34,824 nucleotides of DNA from a virus: the IMG/VR virus record IMGVR_UViG_3300022200_000176, positions 1-34,824 of that record. One strand, given 5' to 3'. Below the pieces are notes generated by a model, which did not search any database, was not told the DNA's origin, and saw only the letters and a list, made by a program, of their open reading frames with translations. Each line of letters begins with the position of its first letter. Position 1 is the first letter of the stretch. Positions 1-31,916 of the stretch are shown here, one piece after another. A program made the position numbers and the translations under genes.

Positions 1-1725
1 GTTATAGTTCTTAATTTCATAATCATAATTTCTTAATACGTCTTTAGCATAATCATATTTTTTAATAAAAACATCTAGCCCTAGAAGTCTTAACATATTA
101 GTGGCTCTTGCAGCTGGTCGCTGTTGAATAAATTCACTATCCCCGTTTTGAGTAGACAAAGTTGTAGTAATAAAATCTTCATAAGATCCAATTGCATTTC
201 TAATTATTTTTTCAGTTTCAGTTCTTTGAGTCTCATTTAGATTTTCCCATTTACCATTTTCATTTTGTCTTTTCAAATCAACATCAGTTCTAGTATGAAT
301 ATAAGCCCCTGACTTCTGATATTTTTTCTCTGATTTTCTTTCTAATCGGTAAATAATTCCTTTAATATCTAATTCTAAAATCACTTTACAATATTCGTCA
401 TCAATATTTTTATTTATTAATTCTTCGTTTTTTACATTGCGAGTTATTTTGTTGAATAAAGCATAAAGAATAGCGTCAATAATTACAGATTTTCCTACAG
501 CATTTTCACCGAATAATCCCACAATTCCTTTTGTCTTTTCAAAGTCCAATTTAACTGGTGAACCGTAAGACATAAAGTTTTCTATTTCAATAGATTTCAA
601 AGACCAATTACAATTAGTAAAATCCTCAAATTCATTTTTAACTACTTTTTCATGAATATTAAAATCGAGTTCTTCTAATTTCAAAATAGTTTTCTCGTCA
701 ATGTTTTCTATTTCTGACCATTTACGAAGTAAAACTTTTTGGACGTTGAAATCATTAACATTGATTAATCCATTAAATTCAATTTCCTTTTTTGAATTGG
801 ATATTGAAGGTCTAAACAATAATTGAATCGAAGTTACTCCATATTTTTCTTTGATCATGGAATTTAATTTTATGATTTCGCTTTTTGAAATTTGATCTGC
901 TGCTGAAGGCCAAATAACTCTTACTCTACATTTTTCAGGTAAAGATAGATCTGGAAGGATTCCTCCGTCTGCATGAATGGTAAAAAATCCATATTGATTT
1001 TCTAATCTTCTAAATTCAACATCAAAATTATCTGGTTCAATATGCCAAACAAGATATCCTTTTTCTAATTCTTCTCCGTGATTTTGTTGGATCAAACTAC
1101 CAGGATACCACATAGTTCCATCAGGGCGAATTGACTGACGTTTGTGAATATCCCCAAGCATTACATAATCGAAATTTTCAAAAGTATGCATTGAAACATC
1201 TGCATTATCCAGACTAAAATTATTATCAAGAACACATCCTTGAACCGATCCATGATAAAGCGCAATATAAATGTTTCCAGTTTTTTTCTGATCTTTAGTT
1301 AATCGGAGATATGGTTTATCATCAAGAAGGCTGTTGACCCCATAAATAATTCCAGGGCTGGGATTTCCTGGTACTTCATGATATCCGGTTTTTTCATAAT
1401 AGGTCAAACCAAATCCATAATCTTTAACCGAATTTACAATTGGGGTTAAAGCATCCAATCGATCCTGATTTGACATATTCATATCGTGATTTCCAGCTAT
1501 TAAATCAACCGGGGCAATTTCTAAAAGATTCTTGAAAAAATCAGTTGTAAGCACAACAAGTTCTGGAGACATTGTAATCTTCGAATGAACAATATCTCCA
1601 GCTAATACAATTCTATCTACATCCACTTCGGCTAAATCATCATAAAGTTTTTCAAATACTTCTTTATATTCTTGTTGACGATCTTTAAGCCTAATATGAA
1701 CATCAGCAATATGGGCTATTTTCAT
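1..1725 (-). CDS. SbcD-SbcC (Mre11-Rad50; T4 gp47-gp46) fusion, 3' end outside window
   Basis: One open frame of 575 codons runs from ATG at 1725 to the window edge without a stop. Residues 1-330 are an SbcD/Mre11 nuclease: D8-x-H10, GDxxH at 43-47, GNHD at 78-81, H158 and GDIH at 191-194 are the metal-binding phosphoesterase motifs. From about residue 376 the same frame becomes the N-terminal lobe of SbcC/Rad50, with Walker A GENAVGKS at 406-413 and a Q-loop-like glutamine at 526. In T4 these are separate neighbouring genes, 47 then 46; together they resect DNA ends for recombination-dependent replication. I checked all codons across the junction (residues 330-400) and found no stop and no internal start with a Shine-Dalgarno sequence. 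The ATG overlaps the primase TGA (ATGA), so translation is probably coupled. The coiled coil, zinc hook and Walker B half would lie beyond the window. Confidence 0.93.
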   Translation of the reverse strand, partial: MKIAHIADVHIRLKDRQQEYKEVFEKLYDDLAEVDVDRIVLAGDIVHSKITMSPELVVLTTDFFKNLLEIAPVDLIAGNHDMNMSNQDRLDALTPIVNSVKDYGFGLTYYEKTGYHEVPGNPSPGIIYGVNSLLDDKPYLRLTKDQKKTGNIYIALYHGSVQGCVLDNNFSLDNADVSMHTFENFDYVMLGDIHKRQSIRPDGTMWYPGSLIQQNHGEELEKGYLVWHIEPDNFDVEFRRLENQYGFFTIHADGGILPDLSLPEKCRVRVIWPSAADQISKSEIIKLNSMIKEKYGVTSIQLLFRPSISNSKKEIEFNGLINVNDFNVQKVLLRKWSEIENIDEKTILKLEELDFNIHEKVVKNEFEDFTNCNWSLKSIEIENFMSYGSPVKLDFEKTKGIVGLFGENAVGKSVIIDAILYALFNKITRNVKNEELINKNIDDEYCKVILELDIKGIIYRLERKSEKKYQKSGAYIHTRTDVDLKRQNENGKWENLNETQRTETEKIIRNAIGSYEDFITTTLSTQNGDSEFIQQRPAARATNMLRLLGLDVFIKKYDYAKDVLRNYDYEIKNYN

Positions 1726-2669
1726 AATGTTGCAATTGCTGCATCAAGCTCGTCAAATGGCTGTGCAGACTTGATCAAAGAAATAATTCCGGTTTGTCCC
1801 GAGTTATTATAAATTTCCGACAAATCGTTAAACTCATTATACCTAGATTTTGGTAAAATGTAAACCTCGCAACCAATACCTATCAGAAATCTTGCTACCT
1901 TTATTTCTTTTTCTTTTCCAGTTTTATCGGCATCAAATCCTAAAATTACTGTAGATTTATTATAGATTAAATTCTTGATCAATCTACTATAACTTCTAAT
2001 GTTGGTTCCGAGAATTGGAATCGCATTATAACATACGATGGCATCAAATACACCTTCTGTGATCATAATAGGTTTATTCCAATCAATAAACTTTTCACCA
2101 AAAATAACTTCATCTTTTTTAAGTCGGGGATTTTTATATTTTAATTTTGAAGTACCATAAAAATCTCGAGCAATAAAATAATCTATTTTACCCGAAAGAG
2201 ATTTAGATGGGATGATAATTCTATTTTTATATTTTCCTGTTTCAGCATAACACATATCCCAGCGATCGATTATCTTTTGATTGATATTCCGTTTTTTGAG
2301 ATAGTTAATAGCTGCTGTATAGTTTAATGAATCATCCCATCTAAATTTTAATGATCTAAAATCGTCTAAAGATAAAACTTCCTCTTGGGGTTTTTCTTTT
2401 TTTATTGGACGATAATTCGAGCTTAAATTTTCAAATTCTAAAATTTGTCTTGGAGTACCATGATCAGAAAAAAGTTTCTTTAAACTTCCTCTATATCCAC
2501 ATGCCCAACAATGAAAAACCTTTTTGTCTAAATTAACAAAGAGATGAAATTTATTTCTATTGTCATCACAATGAGGACAATTATATTGAAGATCGGGTTT
2601 ATCCCTAGAACTACTTTTTGGAAGTCCAAATATCTCATATAATAAACTAATCAGTAGTGGATTGTTCAT
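1722..2669 (-). CDS. DnaG-type DNA primase (zinc finger plus TOPRIM)
   Basis: A 315-residue protein that should make RNA primers for lagging-strand synthesis, the role of gp61 in T4. The N-terminus has a zinc ribbon: C31, H33, C34 and then C54-x2-C57. The TOPRIM core follows, with the TEG glutamate at about 205 and the metal-binding DAD at 246-248. It is close in length to T4 gp61 (342) and shorter than bacterial DnaG, with no room for a helicase domain. GGAG lies 7 bases before the ATG. Its 5' end overlaps the RuvC-like gene by 23 bases and its stop overlaps the nuclease start by 4, so the three form one operon. A fold-level assignment as primase is safe; specific equivalence to gp61 is inferred. 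Confidence 0.9.
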   Translation of the reverse strand: MNNPLLISLLYEIFGLPKSSSRDKPDLQYNCPHCDDNRNKFHLFVNLDKKVFHCWACGYRGSLKKLFSDHGTPRQILEFENLSSNYRPIKKEKPQEEVLSLDDFRSLKFRWDDSLNYTAAINYLKKRNINQKIIDRWDMCYAETGKYKNRIIIPSKSLSGKIDYFIARDFYGTSKLKYKNPRLKKDEVIFGEKFIDWNKPIMITEGVFDAIVCYNAIPILGTNIRSYSRLIKNLIYNKSTVILGFDADKTGKEKEIKVARFLIGIGCEVYILPKSRYNEFNDLSEIYNNSGQTGIISLIKSAQPFDELDAAIATL

Positions 2670-3201
2670 TCAGTTTCTCCAAATGAGCTAAAGCAATGAT
2701 AGCAGAATCAGCCATATCATAACATTCTTTGCGAGGCTTTCCTTCATTTTTTCCTCGAGAAATAGCTGGCCAATCAATATCAGTATATTTTTTTGCAATT
2801 TCAGTCCGAACTAATTCTTTTCGATCTGATCCTTTTGGGAATCTTAAATCGGGGAAAGATAATTTTCGAGCTGTGTTCACATTATAATATACTGGAGTTT
2901 GATTGTAAATAAATTTTGTCATCATTGATACCATTCCGTTAAACATAGAAAGTTTACTCAGAATTTGTGCTCTAGAAAACCCCTCTTGAAACATAACTAA
3001 TGGTTCTTCAATTGCAATATGTGATACTAATCCCTCATAATCTTTTAATATTTCAGCTACAGCCTCAGCTTTATCAAACAAAGTTTCTAATTTACTGAGT
3101 GAAATATATGATAGATTATGGAGATTCCCCTTCTTATCTATGATACAGTATCCAACAACTGAAGTGCTAATGTCCAATCCGAGAATTAATTCGTTATTCA
3201 T
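2647..3201 (-). CDS. RuvC-like Holliday junction resolvase
   Basis: A 184-residue RNase H-fold protein. The first strand carries GLDIS with D10, the second acidic site is IAIEEP (E65/E66), and the C-terminal helix carries YDMADS (D162 and D165); this is the RuvC catalytic pattern D-E-D-D. RuvC enzymes cut four-way DNA junctions; in a phage this would trim branches before packaging or resolve recombination intermediates. T4 uses the unrelated endonuclease VII (gp49) for this job. It is the first gene of the recombination operon, with a very strong AGGAGG 8 bases before the ATG. The 379-base non-coding stretch upstream presumably contains its promoter. Substrate is inferred from family only. 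Confidence 0.85.
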   Translation of the reverse strand: MNNELILGLDISTSVVGYCIIDKKGNLHNLSYISLSKLETLFDKAEAVAEILKDYEGLVSHIAIEEPLVMFQEGFSRAQILSKLSMFNGMVSMMTKFIYNQTPVYYNVNTARKLSFPDLRFPKGSDRKELVRTEIAKKYTDIDWPAISRGKNEGKPRKECYDMADSAIIALAHLEKLNEQSTTD

Positions 3202-5396: not shown

Positions 5397-7478
5397 CTAT
5401 AAATCTAATTCCAGTTTGACTACAACGAATTTTTGATCGTTCTTTTCGAGAGGTTTACTTAATTTTCCATACATTAATAATTCATTGTTCTCGTTATATG
5501 CTCCAACCTCGGTTATATAAACCGAGTTTCCTTCAACATGAGTTGGGTTTTGAGTAGAATTGAATTCGTTATTTTTAGCAACACAAGTTGCTCCTAATTT
5601 ATAAATACTTGATTCAAGATTTCCAGACATATATCCAAAGACAAATAATTGATCCCCCGCAGTATAATTTGATACACCTTTATATACTAATGCCGAAGAC
5701 GGATCTGCCCAAGTAGTACTCGACATACCCCCAGTATAAGTTTCAGTTAATTCAGTTCCTGCTGAAAATGTTGTATTAAGATACACGGAGTTTTCTACTT
5801 TCCAACTAGTAATATCTAAGCTAGTTTCAGAAGTCCCTGTTGCAATATATATCATTCCCCCATTTGAATTTCTAGATATACCGTAATCTTGTGCAGCAGT
5901 ATTTACAACCCAAGGACTTTCTTCTACAAATAGTTGAATTTTTGAATGATGGATTGTTGGGGTAAATACTGCATAATTTGCACATGGATATTTTCCATAA
6001 TAACCACCCTCACCAAATGTCCTAATATTTCCAGAAGCGTAAGCTGGACTAGAGAATTGGTTATAATCATAAGTAATAAAGTAAGTAATTCCTGTTTCAA
6101 CCCATCCGCCTGTAGCATCTAATTGAGAAATAATTGGTTGTGGTAAAGTATAATTACCAAATGAAGCAGCTTCAAGTGCTTGATTTATTTCAGGATCATC
6201 AATAATTGCTACTTTAAGATCATAGAAGATTCTACCTATAATATCACTTGAACTTAAAGCTCCATTTCTCAAATAGTTATATCTTTGCCCAGAAACGGGA
6301 TCTAGCATAACGGATCCGGCTGAGTCATAAAGCTTAAGTCCAGTAGTTAAAGATCCATGATACATAATTGTCGGTAATGAAATGTATTGAGTTCCAGGAG
6401 CTAAAGCTTCAGCAGTACTTAAATCGGTTCCAGTTGGGAAGATCAATGCTTTAAGTTGACCCAAACTATTTGTTTCACTTCCAATTGCCATTCCAATTAC
6501 TCCATTAGCTGAAGCATTTTCATTGAAAGTTCCCCCATCAAACATTTGTTCTCTTAATTGATCCATCCCAAATTTTATTTTTAGCCAGCAATTTGCAGGA
6601 TTATCAAAAGCATTTCCCGCATAAGAAGTAGTAGAATCTGCAGTAGTATTAAGTATTACCCATGCGGGTAATGCTGCTTGATCAGCTTCTTGTCTAAGGG
6701 GAATTCTTTTATCAACATTGAAAGTCCAGAATTCTTCGTCATAAGTAATCCCTGTTGGATTATACATTAACAATTGTGGAATACCATTTGAATTTGGAGT
6801 AAACCAATTTCCAAAATAATGTTCTGATTGTGTTGCACCTAATGTTGCTGTTGTTGCTGTTGATAATAATGGAATTGCAATTAAACATTTTGAATAATCA
6901 ATTGAACCGCTATATGTTTGCCACCAAGAAGTCATTCCACTAGATCCATCAATTTGATATACTCCAGCACCGGTAAATGTTGTCATAGCAGAATATGGGC
7001 CAGTACTAGTCATTCCACTAGTTAAAACTTGAGTGAAAAATATTCCACTGTCATTTCCTAAAGAATCTAATGAGTAATTTAATTCTGTACTTGAGCTCAA
7101 GGGAAATTGGGTTTCATAAGTTGATCCAGTTAAAACCTGACGGACAACTTGAACTTGACCTGGTTCGAATCTCTTTGTAGTAAAAAGCCCGAATTGTTGG
7201 GTAGAATCGCTTTCTCCTGAGGAGCTATCAGCAAATACAGTTATTGACTGTGAAGATGAAGTTGTTTGACCATTGATTGAGAAAATTTTCAGAGATACTT
7301 GATAAACTCCATCAGATAAAAATTGATGAGTAGGATGAATTTCAGTAGATTGAGATCCATCTCCAAAGTCCCATAATACAGAGGTAAAATTTCCTGTAGA
7401 AGTGTTATTAAAATTAACTGTCAATGGTGCTACACCAGTTTTAATTGACGCAGTAAATAATGATTTTAATTCAGCCAT
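5397..7478 (-). CDS. Tail fibre-like protein with N-terminal PKD domain, first cassette copy
   Basis: A 693-residue protein. Residues 7-83 form a PKD domain, shown by PLTVNF, WDFGDG at 36-41, the HPTH motif at 48-51 and YQVSL. PKD domains are immunoglobulin-like beta sandwiches of extracellular proteins that often act as spacers or bind polysaccharide. The rest is Ser, Thr and Gly rich with no catalytic motif. The C-terminus (NEFNST, ITEVGAY, GKLSKPLEK) matches the end of the 390-residue protein at 3581-4753. AGGG lies 8 bases upstream of the ATG. I infer a tail fibre or baseplate-attached adhesin; whether it is the receptor-binding protein cannot be decided from sequence. Confidence 0.8.
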   Translation of the reverse strand: MAELKSLFTASIKTGVAPLTVNFNNTSTGNFTSVLWDFGDGSQSTEIHPTHQFLSDGVYQVSLKIFSINGQTTSSSQSITVFADSSSGESDSTQQFGLFTTKRFEPGQVQVVRQVLTGSTYETQFPLSSSTELNYSLDSLGNDSGIFFTQVLTSGMTSTGPYSAMTTFTGAGVYQIDGSSGMTSWWQTYSGSIDYSKCLIAIPLLSTATTATLGATQSEHYFGNWFTPNSNGIPQLLMYNPTGITYDEEFWTFNVDKRIPLRQEADQAALPAWVILNTTADSTTSYAGNAFDNPANCWLKIKFGMDQLREQMFDGGTFNENASANGVIGMAIGSETNSLGQLKALIFPTGTDLSTAEALAPGTQYISLPTIMYHGSLTTGLKLYDSAGSVMLDPVSGQRYNYLRNGALSSSDIIGRIFYDLKVAIIDDPEINQALEAASFGNYTLPQPIISQLDATGGWVETGITYFITYDYNQFSSPAYASGNIRTFGEGGYYGKYPCANYAVFTPTIHHSKIQLFVEESPWVVNTAAQDYGISRNSNGGMIYIATGTSETSLDITSWKVENSVYLNTTFSAGTELTETYTGGMSSTTWADPSSALVYKGVSNYTAGDQLFVFGYMSGNLESSIYKLGATCVAKNNEFNSTQNPTHVEGNSVYITEVGAYNENNELLMYGKLSKPLEKNDQKFVVVKLELDL

Positions 7479-30691: not shown

Positions 30692-31279
30692 CTAAAACTC
30701 TCTTTCGATTTTTAAAATATCATAAATGTCATTAAACTTCCCATTGGCGATATCCAATGTTGGGCAGTCAATGTGTTTGTTAAATTCATATGGAACTTTG
30801 ATAGCAATTCTATCAGGATCTTTATGAACCTGTTCCAAAACTTGGGGACAATCGTCAATATAAACATCAAATGGAATATAATCAATTTTGTCCTGCATTG
30901 TATCAAAGAATTGATATTCCTTTATTTTACATCCCATTTTTGAAAGCCAGTGAAGAGTTGCGATGATAGATTTATCCTTTTGAACAGAAGCTATAACAGC
31001 TTGATGTCCTTGAGCCTTACATGCTTTTGCAAATTGATTTAAATCCCCTATAACAGATCTGTGAATTCTTGGGGACATCGCAAATAATTCAAAAGGTCTT
31101 GTTTCATATAACCATTTTATTGTTTCGTCTCTTCCAATTACAGGATCTAAGGATTGATAGTCTTTGCCCTTAAGCTCTAAAAATTTTTCAATATGATCTG
31201 GGAAATCCTCCTCAAAATATTTTTCAATTTGGCTTTCTAGATCACGAAGAGTCCCATCGATGTCAATTGCTATAATCAT
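30692..31279 (-). CDS. HAD-superfamily phosphatase, possible 5'(3')-nucleotidase
   Basis: A 195-residue protein starting MIIAIDIDGTLRD. The start at 31279 is chosen over an ATG 15 bases upstream because GAAAGG is 7 bases before it. HAD motifs: D6-x-D8-G-T (nucleophile and acid), S98 in ASVQ (motif II), K131 (motif III) and YIDDCPQ (D142, D143, motif IV). Family members dephosphorylate nucleotides or sugar phosphates; a C1 cap helical insert (15-75) resembles deoxyribonucleotidases. The link to the two glycosyltransferases could mean sugar-phosphate or nucleotide turnover. It follows a terminator, so it begins a new transcript or depends on read-through. Confidence 0.78.
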   Translation of the reverse strand: MIIAIDIDGTLRDLESQIEKYFEEDFPDHIEKFLELKGKDYQSLDPVIGRDETIKWLYETRPFELFAMSPRIHRSVIGDLNQFAKACKAQGHQAVIASVQKDKSIIATLHWLSKMGCKIKEYQFFDTMQDKIDYIPFDVYIDDCPQVLEQVHKDPDRIAIKVPYEFNKHIDCPTLDIANGKFNDIYDILKIEREF

Positions 31280-31296
31280 ACTATAACCTTTCAATT

Positions 31297-31379: not shown

Positions 31380-31916
31380 TTAATTTATAATGACACAATT
31401 CCCATCATTAATAGCAGTATAATGGGAATAAAAATATCCTTCTCCAGAACTTTTTTTATTATAATTCATAAAAGTTTTCGAATCAATTATCAATTCAAAT
31501 TGAACGTCAAAATATTCTTCGTCCTCAAAAATAATGTCCCCAACTAAAAGATAATCAGTTTTTTTGATTCCATTTTCAACAAAATGAGTAAAATTCAATC
31601 CTTGATGTTGATAATCTAATTGATAACTGAGCCATCTACTATTAGCACGTTTCTTTTTAACTTCAATATTCCCAAACGGGGATTCAACATCAAAATCATA
31701 ACCTTCATGAAGAGTCCCATTTAAAACTTGAGCAGCAGCCATTTCAATAATAGTTCCTTCTTCTGTATTCTTATAAATTTGATTATAATCTCTACCGTTT
31801 TTATTTCCATTGAAAATAGAATGCGCTTGTCTTTCAATCCCTTTATATGAGATTTCATTTTTATATACTCGATGAACGCCCTGAAGGGCGTTCACCATAT
31901 CTTGGCTAAATTTCAT
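31380..31916 (-). CDS. PD-(D/E)XK-like nuclease candidate
   Basis: A 178-residue protein. E58 lies in a helix (GTIIEMAAAQVL), followed by D74/D76 in YDFDV and then IEVKKK with E85-x-K87. That order, E helix, D, then ExK on the next strand, is the restriction-endonuclease-like active site. Phage members cut host or foreign DNA or process branched DNA. GAAAGG precedes the ATG, 3 bases after the previous stop. The C-terminal half has no recognisable target domain. Alternative: a structural relic with coincident residues; a fold prediction would decide. Confidence 0.55.
   Translation of the reverse strand: MKFSQDMVNALQGVHRVYKNEISYKGIERQAHSIFNGNKNGRDYNQIYKNTEEGTIIEMAAAQVLNGTLHEGYDFDVESPFGNIEVKKKRANSRWLSYQLDYQHQGLNFTHFVENGIKKTDYLLVGDIIFEDEEYFDVQFELIIDSKTFMNYNKKSSGEGYFYSHYTAINDGNCVIIN

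Follow-up and report, generated by a model that had tools for sequence, protein, structure and literature searches.

Does the reading frame that leaves the left end of this phage contig encode Mre11 and Rad50 as one polypeptide, and if so, what kind of enzyme would it be? The window (all 34,824 nucleotides of IMG/VR virus record IMGVR_UViG_3300022200_000176) begins with a minus-strand frame at 1-1725 that stays open for 575 codons and exits the contig at base 1. We consider it very probable that a contractile-tailed phage encodes here a single-chain Mre11-Rad50 of the R555-like kind, the frame being the 5' part of the gene; the product is ~1050 aa long in relatives and would act as a 2+2 DNA-end machine.

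Domains of the window gene

The Mre11 nuclease and capping domain occupies residues ~1-305 (window 811-1725, minus strand), as assigned from Pfam Metallophos (residues 1-195), PHROG_100, an AlphaFold (AF2) model and Foldseek, where the Mre11 part of the model matched T. maritima and E. coli Mre11. The Rad50 N-lobe and the start of its coiled coil follow at residues 375-575 (window 1-603, minus strand), identified by AAA_23 (378-567, 1e-15), PHROG_77 and archaeal Rad50 structures. PHROGs matches place SbcD at residues 1-298 (1e-31) and SbcC at 350-565 (4e-23), and the PDB sequence matches were to Thermotoga and Pyrococcus Mre11 for the N-terminus and to archaeal Rad50 for the C-terminus.

The metallophosphoesterase active-site motifs of Mre11 are complete, with D8xH10, GD44xxH47, GNHD at 78-81, H158 and GDIH at 191-194 all lying where the preliminary description had put them, as do both motifs of the Rad50 N-lobe, namely Walker A (GENAVGKS, residues 406-413, window 487-510, minus strand) and the Q-loop glutamine Q526 (window 148-150, minus strand). 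The catalytic residues and the G411-K412-S413 of Walker A are invariant in 81/81 aligned fusions, and Q526 is kept in 80 of the 81. Mre11 precedes Rad50 in one frame with zero stops between the domains, and the same description's claim that the nuclease runs stop-free into the Rad50 N-lobe is borne out by the 575-codon open frame and by the Pfam and PHROGs domains. At the level of sequence it is well supported that the window gene encodes a single-chain Mre11-Rad50; its Rad50 C-terminal half lies beyond the window, and we infer it by analogy with relatives (loci L005-L084).

Fused relatives and known systems

A scan of viral contigs with the window protein alone as query found zero relatives; a scan with an alignment of three fusions returned 600 candidate stretches, 589 of them relatives of the query, and the 80 best loci were retained. 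These best 80 of 589 come from many independent metagenomes, and in all 80 the frame passes from Mre11 to Rad50 with no intervening stop. A stop codon is present in 68, at ~1030-1073 aa (among them L015, whose 5' end is open), and the remaining 12 run off the contig end. Complete relatives contain the coiled coil, the hook and the C-lobe, the last, home of the signature motif and Walker B, with conserved S959, G960, E962 and D989-E990. Single-ORF fusions of SbcD and SbcC, for which the preliminary description had proposed a database search, were thus found both in the 80 kept contigs and in isolate and assembled phages. The fusion is one annotated gene of 1066 aa in Microcystis phage Mel-JY01, a 735-kb phage has it as a single 1202-aa open frame, and one-gene fusions are also annotated in Tenacibaculum phages pT24 and PTm1, Sphingomonas phage PAU and Chryseobacterium phage MA9V-1.

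In 10 related records the SbcD profile matched the fused gene in nine and the SbcC profile in all 10, and this profile search found no separate split SbcD/SbcC pair among them. An apparent second SbcD in a 190-kb relative was rejected as a split gene, being a near-copy of the 5' region of the fusion at the contig end. The end of the 190,528-base contig behind L041 (L096/L097) repeats, in diverged form (~85-92% DNA identity), the stretch with which this contig begins and with it the first part of the fusion gene; this near-copy is perhaps a strain-mixed circular closure. A genome scan gave 12 loci, all in metagenome-assembled genomes and mostly on short contigs that could be phage, and a plasmid search gave weak partial matches only.

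In a quick, small and weakly rooted tree built on Mre11 and the Rad50 N-lobe, which carried long-branch warnings, the fusions were parted from five split phage pairs by one change (SH-aLRT 99). The window protein fell within a group of 32 phage fusions (support 91), and its nearest relative among the kept loci, L005, is 38% identical. Foldseek with the model of a full-length relative, L013, listed giant-virus fusions first, the best being that of Tupanvirus, a mimivirus relative (1379 aa, 26% identity).

The preliminary description had implied that the single-chain architecture is novel, which it is not: Mimivirus R555 and twelve other Mre11/Rad50 fusions were described in 2011, in a set that includes Bacillus phage 0305phi8-36, plasmids and eukaryotes (Yoshida, Claverie and Ogata 2011, PMC3175470). 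In the same study, viral fractions proved rich in R555-like sequences, primase genes were noted on the scaffolds that carry these, and a phage origin was argued for many of them (PMC3175470). This description and the giant-virus Foldseek matches assign the window fusion to an already known type, of which it is a further R555-like example and, by itself, one additional member. The full-length genes on phage contigs confirm that the fused form is common among phages of the environment, as had been concluded in 2011 from short metagenome reads. What the present data add is how many full-length phage genes there are, together with the conserved motif at the join and the link to the primase.

With the R555 type the window gene shares an N-terminal Mre11 and C-terminal Rad50 in one ORF, a retained helix-loop-helix, a linker near the predicted length and an occurrence on aquatic viral scaffolds that frequently carry primase genes, but it belongs to a phage, and its relatives have ~1050 aa as against 1351 aa in R555. 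Mel-JY01 and the huge phages LR756508 and LR756501 have the same fused architecture while being merely ~27-34% identical to the window protein, and in Mel-JY01 and LR756508 a primase lies upstream of the fusion, as in the window. The LR756508 fusion, unlike that of the window, is interrupted by an inserted ORF. This insert of ~1 kb (L003, 6580-7650, in the 484-kb phage) sits just past GDIH and holds a 305-aa ORF with Cys-rich zinc-finger-like repeats; it is possibly a homing-endonuclease intron, and an Rfam search of the interrupted gene for an intron gave nothing convincing. PHROG_35725, labelled 'metallo-phosphoesterase', and the similarly annotated genes of pT24/PTm1, PAU and MA9V also encode Mre11 then Rad50 in one ORF with a CxxC hook, but at ~1300 aa these annotated genes are longer than the window kind and form a distant branch, and the annotated neighbours shown for the pT24/PTm1, PAU and MA9V fusions include no primase. 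T4 gp47 and gp46 and the Herelleviridae SbcD and SbcC have the same domains and presumably the same role in recombination-dependent replication, but are encoded by two genes and branch apart from the fusions (SH-aLRT 99).

The join and what it implies

The halves had been described as connected by a short tether at about residues 330-375. In the AF2 model of the window protein (mean pLDDT 83.9), two helices (326-339 and 344-368) precede a Rad50 strand (374-382); in that of full-length L013 (pLDDT 84.9) the helices span 325-340 and 344-359 and the strand 371-380, and a coiled coil leads out to the hook near 723-726 and returns to the C-lobe. Since the two helices appear in both models, the supposed tether is mainly the standard helix-loop-helix by which Mre11 docks on Rad50 (residues 326-339 and 344-368, window 622-750, minus strand), followed by a short linker; about residues 326-361 belong to this Mre11 element. 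The pTM values of the models are low (0.58 and 0.46), so that their domain placement is unreliable, and cis and trans packing of the helix-loop-helix are both compatible with them.

By alignment of 81 sequences the linker lies at residues ~362-374 (window 604-642, minus strand), its first residues overlapping the second helix in the window protein model, and the true linker is ~5-12 residues long. Its family motif, R-N-x-x-W, is near-invariant (N371 in 77/81 and W374 in 79/81 sequences), reads T-N-C-N-W in the window protein and places N-x-x-W immediately ahead of the first Rad50 strand. The spacing of anchors across the join, from Q329 to N383, is 53-57 residues in 80 of 81 sequences. In the T. 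maritima complex the Mre11 C-terminus lies ~28 A from the Rad50 N-terminus, a distance that 9-12 residues could bridge (PMC3175470), and the phage linker agrees with that estimate.

The gene sits at the end of a contig in a metagenome-derived record, where an assembly or sequencing error might have joined adjacent split genes. We give this reading virtually no weight and rejected it: 80 other contigs share the join, with its conserved length and N-x-x-W, and isolate genomes share the architecture, and it is this recurrence in independent relatives that excludes an artefact. A stop or frameshift between residues 330 and 380 had been named in advance as the observation that would count against a fusion, and none of the 80 kept relatives has a stop within the match.

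A genuine fused frame might still yield a separate Rad50, either by translation from an internal start on the same mRNA (TTG376 or ATG385) or by cleavage of the finished chain into an ordinary two-subunit complex. Although TTG376 is positioned where canonical Rad50 begins, none of the in-frame start codons between residues 303 and 390 of the window protein (TTG303, TTG348, TTG376 and ATG385) has a ribosome-binding site at usable spacing. At the join, a start codon is absent in 36/80 relatives, an ATG with a ribosome-binding site occurs in 0/80 and any start with such a site in 1/80, in a test that is only moderately sensitive since the same simple motif precedes just 31 of 79 assigned gene starts. 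The separate Rad50 start that the preliminary description had held up as a counter-indication was therefore rejected as lacking such a site here and conservation in relatives, and we regard it as very unlikely. Cleavage seems to us just as improbable; the linker residues are predicted to lie outside regular structure in full-length L013, but the conserved linker length and N-x-x-W are unlike a disposable spacer, and no protease was identified.

As a single-chain enzyme, two copies would dimerise through their Mre11 domains and ATPase heads into the usual 2+2 machine, which would open and resect DNA ends while the phage genome is repaired and undergoes recombination-dependent replication. What gp46/gp47 and SbcCD do is established, and as the active sites of the fusion are intact, its most likely function by analogy is to resect and open DNA ends for phage recombination and replication. 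The fusion would hold the normal contact between the helix-loop-helix and Rad50 nearby and would ensure that both halves are made in equal amounts and inherited together. Split Mre11-Rad50 complexes are already equimolar (2+2), and the stoichiometry fixed by the fusion is thus a minor change; the constraint on the nuclease-to-ATPase switch put forward in the preliminary description is conjectural. The ~1050-aa single-chain form might lend itself well to work on the gating of the nuclease by the ATPase.

Hook tips and gene neighbourhood

Among 72 relatives that reach the hook tip, 44 have CX2C, 19 have CX6C and nine are other or unassigned; L005, the nearest relative of the window protein, has a CX4C tip, and all split phage Rad50s and larger fusions examined have CxxC. 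L068 (7873-11010) and L079 (ORF from 67) are 91.6% identical overall and 90-100% identical over their Mre11 and ATPase parts, but only ~40% identical at the hook tip (near residues 680-780), where one has CX2C and the other CX6C. Their DNA identity is mostly 78-98% outside the tip and 40-53% at the tip, a pattern that would fit a modular exchange of the hook. The tips of L041 and L076 (85% identical) also differ, with CX3C in one and CX6C in the other. These non-CxxC hooks and tip-divergent, near-identical fusions are more unusual than the fusion itself, and are seen in relatives, outside the window. A speculative extension, which we consider unlikely, would place the window in a large phage family of single-chain Mre11-Rad50 proteins with an exchangeable zinc-hook tip, in which hook compatibility behaves as if selected, for example against mixing with the Rad50 of a competitor or host.

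Upstream of the fusion lie a DnaG-type (Toprim) primase (window 1722-2669, minus strand; PHROG_47 4.8e-44, Toprim_2, DNAG_N) and a RuvC-like Holliday-junction resolvase (2647-3201, minus strand; PHROG_827/159, weak matches). The primase stop overlaps the fusion start codon (ATGA), which suggests that the fusion is expressed together with replication and recombination genes. In 62/83 loci a primase homologue is encoded on the strand of the fusion and no more than 1 kb upstream of it, and a resolvase homologue is also found upstream of the fusion in L003 and others.

T4-type gp6- and gp25-like baseplate genes are present in the window, and gp6 homologues were found in 10/10 related records tested; these genes support a contractile-tailed phage. 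The label 'T4-like' given in advance holds for the baseplate genes, but not for Mre11-Rad50, which is fused and groups with other fusions and not with T4 gp47/gp46. Elsewhere in the window, a 693-aa protein with an N-terminal PKD domain (5397-7478; Pfam PKD_4 3e-13) is possibly a virion surface protein, and a frame at 31380-31916 with a weak match to T4 DenB-like endonuclease IV (PHROG_1360, 6e-6) adjoins an NT5C-type deoxyribonucleotidase at 30692-31294.
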